A stretch of DNA of 64,000 nucleotides from Sphingomonas sp. (GTDB lineage Bacteria; Pseudomonadota; Alphaproteobacteria; Sphingomonadales; Sphingomonadaceae), in NCBI RefSeq assembly GCF_017304635.1, contig NZ_JAFKMA010000002.1, positions 448,962-512,961 on the forward strand, read 5' to 3'. Positions 43,225-49,985 of this stretch are shown here, in pieces. The notes beneath the pieces are model-generated. The model did not search any database, was not told the origin of the DNA, and saw only the letters and a list, made by a program, of their open reading frames with translations. Made by a program: the position numbers and the translations under genes. Position 1 is the first letter of the stretch. The number at the start of each line of letters is the position of its first letter.

Positions 43225-43428
43225 TGAAATGGCGGCTAAGCGCCCCAAATTCGGTCGTTGGGCGTGGGCGGCCTCGATCCCAAAAGCGGTCGCGATTTTG
43301 ATCCCGAAAGCCGCAGCACTGACACCAACTCACTGATCAAAGACACACGCCCCGAATAATCCAACTGAACGTCCCTAGTTCAGTCGTGTGTTGACGATTG
43401 GTCATGCGTGGCTGTAAGGCTGTGCGAT

Positions 43429-43725
43429 ATGAAAATCGAGTTCGCCGATGCCGACCTGTGCCGCATCTGTACCGACGAAGCGCATAAGCTGGGGCTGCCA
43501 GTCACAGTCATCCAGTCCGCGCGGCGTCGACTGGTACAGCTGGAAGCCGCGTCGGACGAACGGGACCTAAGGAATCTGAAGAGCTTGAACTACAAGAAGC
43601 TGCAGGGGGATAAAGATGGGAGACGTACTGTGCGCGTGAACGATCAATATCGGATCGTGTTCACGCTTATTGATACGGAGAAGCCTCCGGTAATCAATAT
43701 TCTCGCAATTTGCGATAATCACTGA
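43429..43725 (+). CDS. higB: RelE/HigB-type toxin
   Basis: A 98-residue protein of the HigB/RelE superfamily (plasmid maintenance killer type). LNYKKLQGDKDGRRTVRVND and QYRIVFTLI are the strands with the basic active-site residues used to cut mRNA on the ribosome. The start ATG at 43429 gives MKIEFADADL; codons upstream are not conserved-looking. The antitoxin gene follows 11 nt later, in the toxin-first order of higBA systems. The toxin appears intact. Confidence 0.85.
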   Translation: MKIEFADADLCRICTDEAHKLGLPVTVIQSARRRLVQLEAASDERDLRNLKSLNYKKLQGDKDGRRTVRVNDQYRIVFTLIDTEKPPVINILAICDNH

Positions 43726-43736
43726 GGGATGCCGTC

Positions 43737-44867
43737 ATGACTGTTTTTTCTTGTCTATCTGATGTGCCTCACCCCGGTGAATATGTGCGCGAAGAGCTTG
43801 ATGCCCGCGGCTGGTCTCAGCGCGACCTCGCTTATATTCTGGGGGTGCCGGAGCAGGCCGTCAACATGATCACGTCCGGCAAGCGTGGCATCAGCCCGGA
43901 AATGGCAAAAGCGCTTGGAACCGCTTTTGATGTGTCTGCGGCATATTTCGCTAATTTGCAGCAAGCGCATGAGATGGCGAACGCTCGGGCGCCGGACCCT
44001 GCGGTCGCGCGGCGCGCAGCGCTCCAAGCGATTTTCCCCGTCCGCGAAATGATCCGCCGCGGCTGGTTGTCCGATACCGACATTGGCATGCTTGAAGCGC
44101 AGGTGATGCGGTTTTTTCGGAGAAACAGCCTGGAGGATGTTCCTTACCTGGCTCACGCGGCGAAGAAAGCAGACTATAGCGAAACAAACCCCCTGCAGCT
44201 CGCTTGGCTGTTTCGCGTTCGGCAACTCGCCGGCGAGATGGTCGTGCCTGCTTTCTCGATGAAGAAGCTGAAGACGTTTACTGACGAGTTGCCCCGTTAC
44301 ATGCTTGATCCCGAGGAGGTTCGCCACGTCCCGCGCGCACTGGCAGAATGTGGCGTGCGCTTCGTAGTTGTCGAGACCCTGCCTAAGGCTAACATCGACG
44401 GGGTCTGCTTCTGGATTGATGACAAGTCGCCTGTGATCGGAATGACGACACGGCACGACCGCATCGACAATTTCTGGTTCGTCCTACGCCACGAGATCGA
44501 GCACGTGCTTAACTTGGATGGTCGCGGTGAGCTAAACGCGGACACGGTGGATGTTGATATCGAAGGTGTAGGAGACGAGGCGCTTCCGGCCTGCGAAGTA
44601 AAGGCGAACAAGGCGGCGCAAAATGCGTGTGTGCCGACCGATGAACTCGCGTCGTTCTATGTACGCAAGTATCCTTATATCGCCGAGAAGGACGTCATGG
44701 CCTTCGCGCGGCGTATCCAGCGGCACCCAGGTATCGTGGTCGGCCAACTTCAGCGCAAAATGGACAGGTACAACTGGTTGGCGCGTCACAAGGTGAAGGT
44801 CCGCCAGCATCTCGCAGGATCTGCGTTGGTTGACGGTTGGGGCGATGTTGCCCCGGCTGAACTGTAG
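43737..44867 (+). CDS. higA: HigA-type antitoxin fused to ImmA/IrrE-like metallopeptidase
   Basis: A 376-residue fusion. Residues 8-70 are a HigA helix-turn-helix (HPGEYVREELDARGWSQRDL, VPEQAVNMITSGKRGISPEM), which should bind the operon promoter and neutralise the toxin. From about 200 on it is ImmA/IrrE-like, with FWFVLRHEIEHVLNLDGRGE holding the HExxH zinc site (H252, E253, H256). The peptidase part could cleave the antitoxin itself or another repressor, giving stress-triggered release. It is much longer than a plain HigA (about 100 aa). A third gene follows 9 nt downstream. Confidence 0.85.
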   Translation: MTVFSCLSDVPHPGEYVREELDARGWSQRDLAYILGVPEQAVNMITSGKRGISPEMAKALGTAFDVSAAYFANLQQAHEMANARAPDPAVARRAALQAIFPVREMIRRGWLSDTDIGMLEAQVMRFFRRNSLEDVPYLAHAAKKADYSETNPLQLAWLFRVRQLAGEMVVPAFSMKKLKTFTDELPRYMLDPEEVRHVPRALAECGVRFVVVETLPKANIDGVCFWIDDKSPVIGMTTRHDRIDNFWFVLRHEIEHVLNLDGRGELNADTVDVDIEGVGDEALPACEVKANKAAQNACVPTDELASFYVRKYPYIAEKDVMAFARRIQRHPGIVVGQLQRKMDRYNWLARHKVKVRQHLAGSALVDGWGDVAPAEL

Positions 44868-44876
44868 GAGCGAAAG

Positions 44877-45350
44877 ATGGCGACCTATCGTGAGCAACTT
44901 CAGAAAGTCTGGCACGCGTTTGAGCGCGAGAACGGCCATGTTCCTGCGACGACTCGTGAAGCCGCGCAATGGGGCGTTGTGAAACGGATGATCGAAATGC
45001 CCCGGGTGGACCCGTTCGATAAGCTGGCGGAGGATATGTCTGCAGCCCTGCGCGAAGAATATGCCACTGACCCCGAAGGCAGGCGTTATCGGGTTAATCA
45101 CGCGGTGCGCGTGAGCAAAGGGGGCGTCCAATACACGTTCTGGGCGATTATGAAGGATGCTCCGCGAGAACATATGCAAAAGGCCTTCATCCAGCGACGC
45201 CAGCAAATCGTTGGCGATTGTGTGCAGCTAGGTACCGACGTCGAGGCCTATAATGCGATGCGATGTGACCAGCCGCCGATCCCCATGCTGTTCGACTTCC
45301 GTGATGACGTGGAGGAACATCGCTACTGGGACGGAAAGAAAGCGGCCTAG
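44877..45350 (+). CDS. Third gene of the toxin-antitoxin operon, function unknown
   Basis: A 157-residue protein beginning MATYREQLQKVWHAFERENG. No family recognised. VPATTREAAQWGVVKRMIEM looks like a short helix-turn-helix, and RVNHAVRVSKGGVQYTFWAI is strand-rich. GGAGCGAAAG precedes the ATG, 9 nt after the antitoxin gene. Its tight linkage suggests that it works with the HigA-ImmA fusion, perhaps as a substrate or regulator. Not needed in simple higBA pairs. Confidence 0.65.
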   Translation: MATYREQLQKVWHAFERENGHVPATTREAAQWGVVKRMIEMPRVDPFDKLAEDMSAALREEYATDPEGRRYRVNHAVRVSKGGVQYTFWAIMKDAPREHMQKAFIQRRQQIVGDCVQLGTDVEAYNAMRCDQPPIPMLFDFRDDVEEHRYWDGKKAA

Positions 45351-45431: not shown

Positions 45432-46367
45432 TCAGGGCTGATTAGTTATCCCGAGCGCGGCATCAAGTTCGTCCCATTCGCGGCGCGAGAGACCTGAAGT
45501 CTCAAAACTAATCGCTTCACCCGATAGCGCGCGTCGGACGATGTCGGCAGCAGTCGCTGAAAGCGAAACCGTGTTCATCTGATATTCCACGAATGCCTCA
45601 TAAGCCATCGGGACCCAGCGTTTGACAATGTCGAGCATCACTTCGGCATATGCGCGAATTTCATATTGGGCGTGAGGATCAGCCCTTAAACGCAGGAAAC
45701 GGAGGAGGTTGTGAAGATCAGCCTTCCAGTACCATTGAGTGTACGTGTTAAGACCTAAACCAATCCGAGCTAGCTCGCGAGCGACGCCGGGGCGGGAGGG
45801 CTCATGATTGCCTCCCTCATCATTGAGCATCCAGAGATAGTTGTCATAGGCACGTTCAGCTTCGCCCCGTAGCAGCGCGCGAACCGCCTCGGCGGCATTG
45901 GTATCGACAGGCTCAGCGCGACCCTGCTTGTTTGCCGCAGATTGAGGCGCGATCTGGTCGGGCTCCGGAATATAAAACTCACGATCAAGTATCGAATAGC
46001 GAGCAGAATACTCATTTACGTTAGCCGTGCGATGCCTGATCCACTGCCGGGCGACGAAAATCGGCAACTTAACGTGAAGCTTGATTTCGCACATTTCGAA
46101 CGGGGTGGTGTGCCAGTGGCGCATTAAATAGCGGATGAGACCGCGATCTTCGCTGACTTTACGTGTTCCACGACCATAGGAAACGCGTGCTGCCTGCACC
46201 ACAGCGCTATCATCACCCATATAGTCTACGACGCGGATGAATCCGTGGTCCAGCACGGGAAATGGCGTGTGCATCACCGCTTCGAGTTCGGGAACGGTGG
46301 GCCGCATTGTCGTCGTGACGGTCGCACGCGCGCGCTCGATTTCGTTTCGCTGATCGTCGTCCAGCAT
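45432..46367 (-). CDS. thyX: FAD-dependent thymidylate synthase
   Basis: A 311-residue ThyX, which makes dTMP from dUMP with methylenetetrahydrofolate, NADPH and FAD. The signature [14 protein letters not shown] lies at residues 111-124. [20 protein letters not shown] and [20 protein letters not shown] are also typical. The start is set at 46367 by GGAGGGTGCG before ATG; 21 codons upstream in frame are unlikely. The product is a cytoplasmic homotetramer. ThyX in place of ThyA is common in alphaproteobacteria. It is a single gene, convergent with the toxin operon. Confidence 0.95.
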
Positions 46368-46591
46368 CGCACCCTCCGAAATCCTGGCTGCGCCGCCCAT
46401 GGCAATGTTGAAATGGTCTGTCGACCACACTTGTTCGCCGCGTCTGGCCGGCCCGGCGACATCGACCTGCGTCGCATGGCCTCATGCCCGCAATAGTGTC
46501 AGATTTGGATCGAGAAATTCTTTGCGCGGATGCACTTAACGTCTAACTCGATTTCGAGGATCCCTGCGGGGGTGGGGGAGGCGGGACTAGT

Positions 46592-47704
46592 ATGAGGCCA
46601 ACTCATACGATCACAACCAATGACGGCATCGCTGAGATCGAGACGCTCCTGCGCCGCTTCACCGCGCGTACCCCGTCGTCGCGCACCGTGCTGCGGATTG
46701 CTTCCCCGCAGCCCGAAGTTTTTTTGCGCGAAACCTGGCTTGCCTTGGCGGTCGCGGCTGCGATGGACAGCACCGACGCCTTCACGTTGCTGTCGCCGGG
46801 CATCAAGGCCTGGCCGGTTTTTGCCGATCCTGACTTCGACAATGACGAGACGCCGGCGCTGTCACTCGCTTATTTGCTGACCTTGCAGACCGGCGGCACG
46901 GTCGTGCCCGACGGCAACGACGCGCTCCGGCTTCCGCTAGAGGTCGTGAAAAACCTGGTCTCGGTCCGCCGAGGCGGCCTCGCCGGCGTCGGCGGGCGCA
47001 CCCAGCGTCTGGTCGAGTTCGATGGGACCGAACCCGTCGCGGCCGCGCTGCGCGAGCACGGCGACTATGTCAGTGCGTTTAAGCATGTCGTCGTTTCGAT
47101 GATGCGCCGCGTCGAGGTCGGGGCGATCGCGCGCAACATTGACGAAGACCTGACCGCGATCGGGAAGAGCGATCTAATCGACTTCCTTCGAGAACTGCAT
47201 TCGAACGGCTATGCCTATGCCCGCGCCGCAGGCGCGGTTCGCGTGCTCAAATTCCGCAAGAACCTGGAGGCCAAGGATCAGGCGCTCGAGCGCGCCACCG
47301 GCTTCCCGCTGCTGCGCGACTATATTGCCGGCCAACGGCAGGATCGTCTCAACCTGATCGAAGCCAGCGTCTCGGATTTCGGGCCGGGCATATTGGAGGG
47401 ATTCAGGGCAAGCGAAGTTGGCCGGGGGTATGACGATTGGGCCGACGACCGACTGATGGACAAGCTCCTCCACGAACAACTCAGCAGCAATGCCGATGAT
47501 CCCAATGCCGGCCGCGGCACGGTGATTGCGATTGGGGCGGCGCGACGGATCGAGGGATTCGTGACCTTGCGGACCGGACGGCATTGGTATGTGCTCGACG
47601 GCTCGCGCCACGACGCCGAGCGTATGGTCCCGGTCCCGGGCGAGCATCCGCCGGTCAAGGGTACGCACTGGACGATCATCTACCCGGACGCGCTGCAGTC
47701 CTAA
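46592..47704 (+). CDS. GHKL-type ATPase, first gene of an unrecognised two-gene system
   Basis: A 370-residue protein. Residues 1-165 are unknown (EIETLLRRFTARTPSSRTVL at the front). After that the ATP-binding marks of the GHKL (Hsp90/histidine kinase) fold appear in order: N box FLRELHSNGYAYA with the magnesium-binding asparagine near 205, G1 box SVSDFGPGI near 262, and G2 box NAGRGTVIAIGAARRI near 307. There is no phospho-acceptor histidine domain or receiver, so it is not a usual sensor kinase. The next gene begins 11 nt after its stop. The pair stands between thyX and a thiolase gene. Function unknown; an anti-phage or nucleotide-signalling role is speculation. Confidence 0.75.
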   Translation: MRPTHTITTNDGIAEIETLLRRFTARTPSSRTVLRIASPQPEVFLRETWLALAVAAAMDSTDAFTLLSPGIKAWPVFADPDFDNDETPALSLAYLLTLQTGGTVVPDGNDALRLPLEVVKNLVSVRRGGLAGVGGRTQRLVEFDGTEPVAAALREHGDYVSAFKHVVVSMMRRVEVGAIARNIDEDLTAIGKSDLIDFLRELHSNGYAYARAAGAVRVLKFRKNLEAKDQALERATGFPLLRDYIAGQRQDRLNLIEASVSDFGPGILEGFRASEVGRGYDDWADDRLMDKLLHEQLSSNADDPNAGRGTVIAIGAARRIEGFVTLRTGRHWYVLDGSRHDAERMVPVPGEHPPVKGTHWTIIYPDALQS

Positions 47705-47714
47705 CGGCGCTGGC

Positions 47715-49985
47715 TTGTACACCTTCCGAACTTCCGTCAGCGGCACCGGTCGCAAGCAGCCGCTCCGGATCGTTCAGGCCGAGAAAGGCCAGACGATCGG
47801 CGACATCCTGGAGGCCCTGCGCCAGCAGGGTCTCGCGACCGAGCCCGTTGTCATCAGACTGCCGGTCGAATGGTCGGTCGATCCTGCGATCATCGCCGCC
47901 GATCCTGCGGAATGGACCGGGCCTGTCCGCGACCTGGTCGGCGAGCCAGCGGACATGTTCGGGCGCGCGAGGGATCGCTCCGTTTACCTCCTCTACGCGC
48001 ATCAGGCGCAGCCGTATCTGTCGCGCGCGCTCAACACCTCGCTGATCTCCGACGACCTCGCCGGATTCGTGCCTGCAGAGCTCGTCGACCAGCTCCGCCA
48101 GGCCGAGTTCGGCTATCTGGTCGAGCGGTCAAAGGCCTTGCTGAGCGCACCGCCTGGCACGTCGTTTCGCGCACCGAGCGGCAAGATCGTTAGCAACTTC
48201 ATTCGGGTCGGCAACATCCAGATCGATCGCGATGCGCTCGATGCGATCGCGTTTTGGATGCTTGAGCATCTCAAGGACCGTCAGGCAATTGTCGTCGATA
48301 CCTGGTCGATCTCATCGCTGGCGTCGCACGCGGCGCGGATCGCCAGCGAGCATCTCGCAATGCCCATGCCAAGGTTGGAAATTCTGCCGGGCTATAACGA
48401 CGGGAGTACTGCCGCGAAGGATGAGGCGCTTCGCATCCTCAAGCGTATCGATGCCGACGTCGGCGCGGCGCCCGAAGATAAGACACGAGTTCTCATCCTC
48501 ATCAGTGCGACCCAATCCGGCAGCCTGGGCAAAGTCCTGAAAGAAGCGAGCGCCGATAGCGGTCATCGCTGCGATCCGACCTTTCTCGCCTTGTTCGCGC
48601 TGGCCGATAGCGACCTACCGCGGCTCTCTAATATGGTGAGTGATCAGCGGTTTTCGTACAAGGATGACGACGAGGCGACCGCGACGATCGAGATCGACCG
48701 CCAGGTCTATTTTCCGCTCGCTTATGAGGACGTGTCCTACCGACTCCGCAAACCCGATGCGCAGCGGTACCGGCGTTTCTTCGACGATTATGCCGAAACG
48801 CAGGTGGTTCGCCTGCATGCCGATGGGGTGAGGCTCGACGCGACACGGCAGCCGCATCACATGATCAGGCTCGATCTCGACGAGATACGCGAGACGGCAC
48901 CGTTCAGGGCAAAGCTGGCGACGACGCTCGCTGGCTTCGGGCCGCAGTTGGCGGTGCTCGCGCCAAGCCACGACGCCGCCTGGAAATTCGCCGGACAGGT
49001 CGAGGTTGAGCTCGAATCGCGGTTTGGCAAGATCCTGGTTCTCCATTTGCCGGCGCTCGGTGCTGCCACCGATACTGGCGATCGCGCCAAGGCCGCCGCG
49101 ATCATTCGCGCGGCCAAGACAGGTGACGAAATCACGATCGTTGAGGACGTCGCGAGCGGCACCGATCGCGTCGCGCAGATCGATAAGATGCTTCGAACCG
49201 AAGGATTTGCCGGGAAGGTCAACTTCGTAATCGGCATCCATACCGACGAGGATCCTGAGGAGTGGGTGGCGTTTTGCGGACGGTTGGGGCCCAACACCGT
49301 CCATGTCGTCGAAGAATTACCCATGCCGGATGGCGGGAGCGATGCTTGCCCGTGGTGCAGGGAGCTCGAACTCTACGATCGCTGGGCCCAGCACGGCCCA
49401 CCATTGCCACCCGCCTTGCTCGAACGGCGCCAAAGCCTTGTCGGCGCCGGCACGGCCGGCTTGACCGCCAATGCGCTCCTTCATCCTGCTCAGCTCGCTG
49501 CGCCCGAACTCGGACCCAAATCCTTTTACAGCAACGCCGGTTGCAGCCAGGCACACGTGATCGGCGCGGCGGCAGCGGCGATCCAGTACCAGCGCGCTGT
49601 CGGTCAGCCGGACAAGCCCAAACTCGGCGAACGGCATTATCCGGTGGCGACGATTCTCGACCATCAGGACTATCTGTTGCAAAAGTGGACCGACACCGTG
49701 TTACGGAGTTCGTTCCTGCGCGCGGCGACCCGCGACGAACTCGTCTGGACGGAGAAGGCGAAGGAGGGCAAGCGCGCGGCTGCGCTCGAAAAGCTGATCC
49801 ATCACGCAGACGCTAGCGAGCACGATATCGTCCTCGAACTGCTCATTGCCGCTTGCCTTGGCAAGGTGACGATCAATCTTGCCGATGCATCGCTCGTGGC
49901 CCGCATACAGTCGCTGACGACCGATGGTTCGGCTGGGTATTTGATCGAGCGGCTAAAGGAGTTGAAGGAAGCCGGTCAGATCTAG
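47715..49985 (+). CDS. Large protein with two phosphoribosyltransferase-like regions
   Basis: About 756 residues from a TTG at 47715, 11 nt after the GHKL gene; the frame is open further up, but those residues are out-of-phase shadow. Region one, about 150-290, resembles orotate-type phosphoribosyltransferases: GKIVSNFIRVGNIQIDRDAL, RQAIVVDTWSISSLASHAAR, and RVLILISATQSGSLGKVL where the PRPP loop would be. Region two, about 380-520, has ILVLHLPALG and EITIVEDVASGTDRVAQI, again like a PRPP loop. CPWC at 545-548 may bind metal. The C-terminal 200 residues are helical. Coupled to the ATPase. I do not recognise the whole protein. Confidence 0.7.
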   Translation: MYTFRTSVSGTGRKQPLRIVQAEKGQTIGDILEALRQQGLATEPVVIRLPVEWSVDPAIIAADPAEWTGPVRDLVGEPADMFGRARDRSVYLLYAHQAQPYLSRALNTSLISDDLAGFVPAELVDQLRQAEFGYLVERSKALLSAPPGTSFRAPSGKIVSNFIRVGNIQIDRDALDAIAFWMLEHLKDRQAIVVDTWSISSLASHAARIASEHLAMPMPRLEILPGYNDGSTAAKDEALRILKRIDADVGAAPEDKTRVLILISATQSGSLGKVLKEASADSGHRCDPTFLALFALADSDLPRLSNMVSDQRFSYKDDDEATATIEIDRQVYFPLAYEDVSYRLRKPDAQRYRRFFDDYAETQVVRLHADGVRLDATRQPHHMIRLDLDEIRETAPFRAKLATTLAGFGPQLAVLAPSHDAAWKFAGQVEVELESRFGKILVLHLPALGAATDTGDRAKAAAIIRAAKTGDEITIVEDVASGTDRVAQIDKMLRTEGFAGKVNFVIGIHTDEDPEEWVAFCGRLGPNTVHVVEELPMPDGGSDACPWCRELELYDRWAQHGPPLPPALLERRQSLVGAGTAGLTANALLHPAQLAAPELGPKSFYSNAGCSQAHVIGAAAAAIQYQRAVGQPDKPKLGERHYPVATILDHQDYLLQKWTDTVLRSSFLRAATRDELVWTEKAKEGKRAAALEKLIHHADASEHDIVLELLIAACLGKVTINLADASLVARIQSLTTDGSAGYLIERLKELKEAGQI

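Follow-up and report, generated by a model that had tools for sequence, protein, structure and literature searches.

We focus here on two adjacent genes, A and B, in a 64,000-nucleotide stretch of a Sphingomonas sp. genome (assembly GCF_017304635.1, contig NZ_JAFKMA010000002.1, positions 448,962 to 512,961 of the forward strand), referred to below as the window. Gene A carries the motifs of a GHKL-type ATPase, and gene B encodes a protein in which two domains of phosphoribosyltransferase (PRTase) fold follow one another; we hold this overall architecture to be nearly certain. Judged by its sequence, the pair is a very divergent member of PDC-M65, a two-gene candidate in the PADLOC collection whose prefix we take to stand for phage defence candidate, and it is rare, patchy and horizontally mobile. 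The two open reading frames (ORFs) and their parts, including the positions of the loops that would bind phosphoribosyl pyrophosphate (PRPP), are listed below with the evidence for each (pLDDT, predicted local distance difference test).

46592..47704, + strand: ORF A, GHKL (Bergerat-fold) ATPase-like, 370 residues, without histidine-kinase parts (motifs in homologues)
47177..47215, + strand: N box of A (around ELHSN, N205); the N invariant, the E nearly invariant
47375..47389, + strand: G1 box of A (DFGPG; D262, G264, G266); D, G and G invariant
47510..47518, + strand: G2 box of A (GRG, residues 307-309); second G invariant, first nearly so
47715..49985, + strand: ORF B, tandem PRTase-fold protein with a helical C-terminal region, 756 residues from TTG (PADLOC, alignment, Foldseek)
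48087..48749, + strand: domain 1 of B, orotate-PRTase-like (hhalign against PyrE-like proteins)
48486..48539, + strand: PRPP-loop position of domain 1 (RVLILISATQSGSLGKVL), without the acidic pair (alignment, 20 rows)
48852..49409, + strand: domain 2 of B, PRTase-CE-like (hhalign against PRTase-CE; pLDDT of the block)
49131..49169, + strand: PRPP loop of domain 2 (ITIVEDVASGTDR), acidic pair kept (alignment, 20 rows)
49347..49358, + strand: CPWC pair at the end of domain 2, residues 545-548 (position of the PyrE-like CPxC)
49548..49982, + strand: C-terminal helical region of B (conserved across the 20-row alignment; pLDDT 60-89 over residues 661-756)

Architecture of the Two Proteins

The motifs of ORF A come in order, with the N box RELHSN followed by the G1 box DFGPG, the G2 box GRG and a terminal GT motif containing G357, and six positions of these motifs (one N, one D, four G) do not vary among the 21 aligned A proteins. 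This bears out the original prediction, made from the window sequence, of a GHKL-type ATPase that lacks the parts of a histidine kinase. HATPase_c of Pfam was undetected in window A, where no Pfam family rose above cut-off, and it reached E<=0.1 in 2 of the 21 members of the A family (best 0.0058); NCBIfam matched neither A nor B. Against the sequences of the Protein Data Bank (PDB), window A alone gave one unconvincing phmmer match (E 0.6). The 21-protein A profile found three sequences at E<=1, all of them CheA (E 0.36-0.41), whose aligned segments are collinear with the N, G2 and GT motifs of A, none being significant alone.

The longest reading frame of B opens at an ATG inside A (47589) and would encode 798 residues. 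The TTG at 47715 is favoured as the start because the N-termini of the homologues agree with it in the alignment, and from there to 49985 the protein has the roughly 756 residues originally claimed for it. Both ORFs are open where that claim placed them, and the spacing between A and B, given earlier as 11 nucleotides, is 10 with this start.

Window B is collinear with the other B proteins, had no phmmer match in the PDB when searched alone, and contains no Pfam family above cut-off, its C-terminal region included. The AlphaFold2 (AF2) model of B was built, like that of A, on a thin alignment (six rows for B and five for A) and has a mean pLDDT of 57.9, with blocks of 54-81 at residues 141-290, 80-88 at 391-440, 62-83 at 461-530 and 60-89 at 661-756. 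When this model was compared with the PDB by Foldseek, 23 of 23 matches at E<=0.001 were PRTases or a PRTase-containing UMP synthase, and a single one of the 50 listed matches (rank 37) was not a PRTase; the output carries no ranges, so these matches are not assignable to domain 1 or domain 2. The only match of the B profile at E<=1 among PDB sequences was a PRPP synthetase (E 0.17), in whose alignment the domain-2 loop of B lies opposite DDIISTGGT.

The nature of the two domains was addressed with hhalign. Domain 1, represented by 20 rows, aligned with 14 PyrE-like proteins over 167 columns (probability 96, E 4.7e-9), a resemblance to orotate phosphoribosyltransferase (OPRTase). The probability was 95 with the 18 rows that remain without the window and L033, a metagenome-assembled genome of the Mariprofundaceae, and 1.3 (E 0.039) with the window and L033 alone; the assignment therefore leans on the relatives. 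Controls gave E 0.63 for ThyX and 0.65 for ORC. Domain 2 (20 rows) aligned with five PRTase-CE proteins such that the PRPP loops coincide (probability 50, E 1.6e-4), the probability falling to 13 for the window and L033 and to 6 for the other 18 rows, with controls at E 0.47 (ThyX) and 0.11 (ORC). An OPRTase assignment of domain 2 was weak (probability 3-10), and PRTase-CE fits better, though only with all 20 rows. The Pfam family itself (PF24390) has no match in window B and matches L033 B below cut-off (E 0.074), and hhalign does not detect a likeness between PRTase-CE and the PyrE-like set either (probability 0.15). An internal duplication is not supported, domains 1 and 2 having no detectable likeness to one another (probability 2-6). 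The Foldseek matches and the alignment of domain 1 thus agree with the earlier suggestion that B contains two regions resembling PRTase cores. Residues equivalent to F162, D195 and S264 of window B are the same in every one of the 20 rows. The alignment is also comparatively well conserved in the C-terminal region, whose signature in the relatives is of the type F-x-R-[FY]-N-D and has diverged in window B.

Both of these regions had been credited with a PRPP loop, which for one of them is too much if the term is meant functionally. TIVEDVASGTDR, in domain 2, keeps the acidic pair, and LILISATQSGSLG stands at the loop position of domain 1 without it. In the first loop the acidic pair is missing from all 20 aligned B proteins (the window has SA), and the Ser/Thr-Gly part is kept in 18 of them. 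In the second it is missing from 18 of 20, being kept only in the window (ED, residues E477 and D478) and in L033 (DD). These counts concern 20 rows, the B of L032, which is interrupted by a stop, and four viral B proteins not being among them; read by eye, the viral B proteins of L074 and L075 also lack the loop acids. In the alignment, most B proteins thus have a degenerate version of the usual PRPP site and a core that stays conserved. PRPP chemistry is doubtful for most of the family because the acidic pairs of the loops are absent. The predicted CPWC pair is real and stands where PyrE-like proteins end in CPxC (the PyrE-like protein of L011 ends in CPMCKEG...). L033 B has CPWC at the same place, and a CxxC at the end of domain 1, counted by eye in 9 of 20 rows, is absent in the window.

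A Divergent Member of PDC-M65

In PADLOC, window B matches PDC-M65B (PDLC04765) with E 3.7e-13 in two stretches, the best at 148-206, and window A matches no model at E<=1, that of PDC-M65A (PDLC04764) included. The A and B proteins of four other loci (L028-L031) match PDC-M65A and PDC-M65B, respectively, and the A of L033, like that of the window, has no PDC-M65A match. The window pair shares with PDC-M65 the two-gene order, with a GHKL-like A directly upstream, on the same strand, of a B of about 750 residues. It differs in that A is unmatched and B matches in part, keeping the PRPP-loop acids of domain 2 and the CPWC pair. The original prediction knew of no described system with this pair. 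The pair does exist in PADLOC as PDC-M65A/B, and that part of the statement needs correcting; no paper using the name PDC-M65, and among the matches listed no description of a GHKL plus tandem PRTase system or of a link between ThyX and PRTases, came up in the open literature searched, outside of which lie subscription papers, bioRxiv and supplements. To our knowledge, no mechanism has been published for PDC-M65.

In each of the 25 loci examined (the window, 10 further genome loci, 10 plasmids and four viral contigs), the ORF immediately before B is GHKL-like, so that the adjacency for which a survey of genomes had been proposed is conserved. The distance between the genes is -23 to +10 nucleotides in 13 of the 14 loci measured and +90 in the remaining one. 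Some copies are broken: the B of L032 by the stop already mentioned, that of L055 by having its N-terminal part as a separate ORF, and the A of the viral contig L074 (3479-4674) by a frame break, its B being open. The A of L078 appears, by reading, to be the same as that of a Pantoea agglomerans plasmid, and these two loci are therefore not independent.

The counts at the level of order, class and phylum include the genome of the window. In the order, B is present in 2 of 296 genomes. In the class, a seven-row profile matched six of 385 genomes, one of them falsely (G829, a short match in an ORF which by reading lies beside a SulP-like ORF), leaving 5 of 385. In the phylum, the PDLC04765 model matched 21 of 398 genomes, from which 14 genomes of a single family (L010-L023) were dropped as PyrE-like, leaving seven true members with the window. 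An ORF with the PyrE motifs sought was present in 14 of 14 of the dropped loci, and the only one of them scanned (L011) matches Pribosyltran of Pfam.

Among plasmids, tblastn with two canonical B proteins returned the same 10 records each, from Proteobacteria and one Spirosoma (Bacteroidota). Phage records searched for B gave no match. Viral contigs yielded four distinct B loci (L074, L075, L078 and L079), two other viral-contig scans giving none. Close relatives of the window pair were found neither in plasmids (searched with A and B) nor, searched with B, in phages, viral contigs or the 296 genomes of the order. A scan of genome contigs brought up only a Mariprofundaceae contig (L046), which is the same contig as L033, and among 74 genomes of the family of L033 only that genome itself (G551) has a relative of this type. 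A MobA gene neighbours the pair in L032, and by reading there are phage-tail-like ORFs in L078 and an integrase-like ORF in L079.

Defence-Type Surroundings

Several loci place the pair among defence genes. In L028 its neighbours, identified by Pfam or PADLOC, are HsdR of type I restriction, NERD-UvrD, HipA and a weak HEPN match, and in L032 they are SIR2 and Piwi of a prokaryotic Argonaute system. L042 has an AbiLi/AbiLii-like pair, L043 type I restriction, L075 the SIR2-like PDC-S25, and L031 a weak candidate match in PADLOC. The record annotation names Qat in L052 and nuclease-domain genes in L055. In L054 (157-3993 and 9470-15962), again by annotation, a plasmid island around thyX, A and B contains TIR-domain genes, a dGTPase gene (dgt) and multiubiquitin/ThiF genes. 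The proposal of a role in stress signalling or anti-phage defence fits the defence-type or mobile surroundings of several loci, though not of all. In the window itself, three genes lie upstream:

43408-45350, + strand: HigB-like toxin, HigA-like antitoxin with an IrrE-type domain, and a third small ORF without a family (Pfam, PADLOC, NCBIfam)

The HigA-like gene matches PD-Lambda-2_B of PADLOC (E 1.4e-44), and PADLOC has no model that fits the HigB-like gene or the third ORF. This PD-Lambda-2-like module is separated from the pair only by the following gene, a divergent neighbour directly beside A which the original prediction had overlooked.

45432..46430, - strand: thyX, FAD-dependent thymidylate synthase, divergent neighbour of A (Pfam Thy1, E 1.2e-55)

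The thyX Gene Beside the Pair

The genome of the window has this one Thy1 match and, elsewhere, thyA, which makes ThyX a second thymidylate synthase. Since Thy1 occurs in only 3 of 196 genomes of the order, with that of the window counted, thyX is an accessory gene there. On three Rhizobiaceae plasmids thyX immediately precedes the pair and shares its strand, the ThyX proteins being 57-62% identical to that of the window. Two further thyX genes have settings of their own. That of G148, of the same genus, is the only Thy1 match of its genome and by reading stands directly before ORFs of type I restriction-modification type (L071, 4475-8155); that of G086 lies on a contig that reads as phage-like.

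Searched against plasmids at E<=1e-60, window ThyX found 57 records, 33 of them from Borrelia, and 16 of the 24 others were examined; these plasmids are not independent samples, and the counts have no matched background. Three of the 16 thyX genes stand beside the pair, nine lie within about 4 kb of an ORC-CDC6-like gene, and for four (L064, L070, L082, L083) neither the pair nor an ORC/PRTase-CE/HD-CE module was recognised nearby. The ORC-CDC6-like gene is joined by PRTase-CE in L062, L066, L067, L068 and L081, by HD-CE in L063 and L080, and was recognised alone in L065 and, weakly, in L069. This recurrent plasmid neighbourhood of thyX and ORC-CDC6 has no description among the literature matches listed. 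Several of its nine loci carry an annotated DNA methyltransferase, and in L081 (9892-10764) the ORC-CDC6-like gene appears by reading to be interrupted by a transposase-like ORF.

Comparison With Known Systems

The closest parallel to the domain-2 end of B is found in these same modules, in which an ORC-CDC6-like protein (PF24389) is combined with PRTase-CE (PF24390), which resembles domain 2, or with HD-CE (PF24391), and which also occur near thyX, like the window pair. Their ATPase is of the AAA+ ORC/CDC6-like kind, in contrast to the GHKL type here, and no OPRTase-like domain was seen in them. For domain 1 the comparison is with PyrE, over most of which the domain of the family aligns, including the N-terminal SGK, and whose C-terminal CPxC recurs in relatives. 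The B family differs in lacking the PRPP acids, in its tandem fusion and in its GHKL partner, and the window and L033 alone reach no more than the E 0.039 given above.

PRTases have precedents in defence. The DprA-PRTase unit of P2-like phages is reported to protect against T7 and lambda, with the PRTase proposed as an abortive-infection effector (PMC9122126). It is likewise a two-gene defence unit with a PRTase, but the partner is DprA rather than a protein with GHKL motifs, and the tandem PRTase fold is a feature of B. Type III-A retrons contain PRTase and winged-helix genes and employ a PRTase-type effector against phages (PMC12548924), which is the likeness to B. A difference is that no Rfam family exceeded gathering thresholds in the window, where no search aimed at a reverse transcriptase was made. 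For GHKL domains the precedent is the Shedu protein VcSduA, whose ATPase domain has been suggested to govern the effector of that defence system; this effector is a PD-(D/E)xK nuclease fused in the same chain, unlike the separate B (PMC12137116). A thymidylate synthase domain, which may or may not be ThyX, is also listed among the defence domains newly validated with DefensePredictor (PMC13092281).

Proposed Function and Alternatives

Our tentative reading is that the pair is a conflict module that has moved horizontally and is aimed most probably at phages, thyX serving as an accessory in particular lineages; it would be a divergent PDC-M65 with an effector acting on the nucleotide pool. The parts of this reading differ in strength. 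Computation shows the architecture, the PRTase fold, the adjacency, the mobile settings, the degeneration of the loops and the neighbourhood of thyX, whereas ATP switching, control of B by A, the nucleotide target, the defence role and the part played by ThyX are inferred. A conflict role for the pair is probable; that B is a nucleotide-pool effector rather than a sensor falls somewhat short of even likelihood; and a role for ThyX in securing or biasing dTMP (thymidine monophosphate) is rather unlikely. From the PRTase and GHKL precedents in defence (PMC9122126, PMC12548924, PMC12137116) we infer an ATP-gated switch over a nucleotide-acting B. A would be a GHKL dimer gated by ATP that controls B, and the fused PRTase-fold domains of B would have nucleotides or phosphoribosyl compounds as ligands. 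Freed by A, B may act on the pyrimidine nucleotide or PRPP pool such that the infected cell could not supply phage DNA synthesis. In most relatives, with the PRPP acids lost, changed chemistry or ligand binding would do the work, and domain 2 of the window copy may have retained the capacity to bind Mg-PRPP. ThyX might keep up or bias the supply of dTMP by a route independent of ThyA.

Several observations weigh against this reading. The structure model of A is of low confidence (pLDDT 43.7), and although 50 of its 50 listed Foldseek matches are GHKL proteins, none reaches E<=0.001. The loss of the PRPP-loop acids in most B proteins speaks against simple PRPP catalysis, and it weakens the original idea of an ATP-driven switch coupled to PRPP or nucleotide chemistry. 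Of the 10 neighbouring genes scanned with PADLOC 8 matched, having been picked as defence-like, which is not an enrichment test, and L041, L047, L049 and L050 have no recognised defence gene nearby, as judged by annotation and reading without scanning. At 62-64%, the G+C content of A and B gives no sign of recent arrival in a window of 62% (the three upstream genes and thyX have 53-58%), and no phage test of any family member was found in the literature searched. As for thyX, just 4 of the 25 loci have it next to the pair; these four are alphaproteobacterial throughout, and three of them are close relatives (B 69-74% identical). Co-inheritance is also questioned by window ThyX being 63-66% identical to seven ThyX proteins of ORC modules versus 57-62% to those associated with the pair. 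Since window ThyX is nearer to the former, repeated origin of the neighbourhood of thyX and the pair is more likely than inheritance as a single unit.

These figures for thyX favour an explanation which we consider possible if doubtful, namely that thyX travels as general cargo on the mobile elements and islands of Alphaproteobacteria, without a functional tie to the pair. The four plasmid thyX genes with none of these partners recognised nearby agree with it, as do the thyX genes of G148, before restriction-modification-like ORFs, and of G086, on a phage-like contig. It is opposed by the other 12 of the 16 plasmid genes, which stand beside the pair or near ORC-CDC6, bearing in mind that these have no matched background, and by the window and the Rhizobiaceae plasmids sharing thyX though no more than about 18% identity connects their B proteins and the genes are oriented differently. 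A further view, of a ThyX-linked PRTase immunity in which two unrelated ATPase switches, GHKL and ORC-CDC6, were each coupled with PRTase-CE-type proteins and an accessory ThyX, is unlikely. Under it, infection would re-route the pyrimidine or dTMP pool, ThyX would be a ThyA-independent source or guard, and the window copy would be one that keeps its PRPP-binding site.

The decay of the loops allows for another role of B, that of a catalytically dead PRTase-fold sensor which recognises a nucleotide changed by infection and signals to the GHKL ATPase, the effector being the conformational change of A or, for instance, the helical C-terminus of B. Loop 1 lacks the acids in all 20 rows and loop 2 in all but two, yet loop 1 retains its Ser/Thr-Gly in 18 of 20 and D195 and S264 are invariant; this suggests that ligand binding is perhaps kept and the usual catalysis lost, and the good conservation of the C-terminal region is consistent with this. 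Yet the window and L033 keep the acidic pair of domain 2 and CPWC, with which catalysis is possible there, and no effector is visible in A. On balance we regard a sensor as fairly unlikely.

A toxin-antitoxin system, with B as a toxin restrained by A and plasmid maintenance as the main benefit, is suggested by a two-gene operon of overlapping or nearly overlapping genes that is found on plasmids. It is quite improbable: the frame-broken A beside an open B in L074, if genuine, makes an essential antitoxin role of A less likely, and A and B both exceed the size usual in a classic type II pair. Finally, a regulator of pyrimidine supply in stress or metabolism, for which an OPRTase-like domain 1, a neighbouring ThyX (both pyrimidine enzymes) and loci with only metabolic neighbours by annotation could be cited, is hardly probable given the rare and patchy presence of the pair, its plasmid and viral-contig locations and its repeated defence neighbours.

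If the conflict-module reading is true, it would offer a testable mechanism for an unstudied defence candidate, in which a GHKL switch governs PRTase folds, often without their acids, that serve as effectors or as sensors of nucleotides. It would also hint at a reason for the presence of spare thyX genes on plasmids of Alphaproteobacteria. Just two of the 20 rows have PRPP-loop acids, and the window copy, being one of them, would then be a good starting point for the biochemistry of the family.

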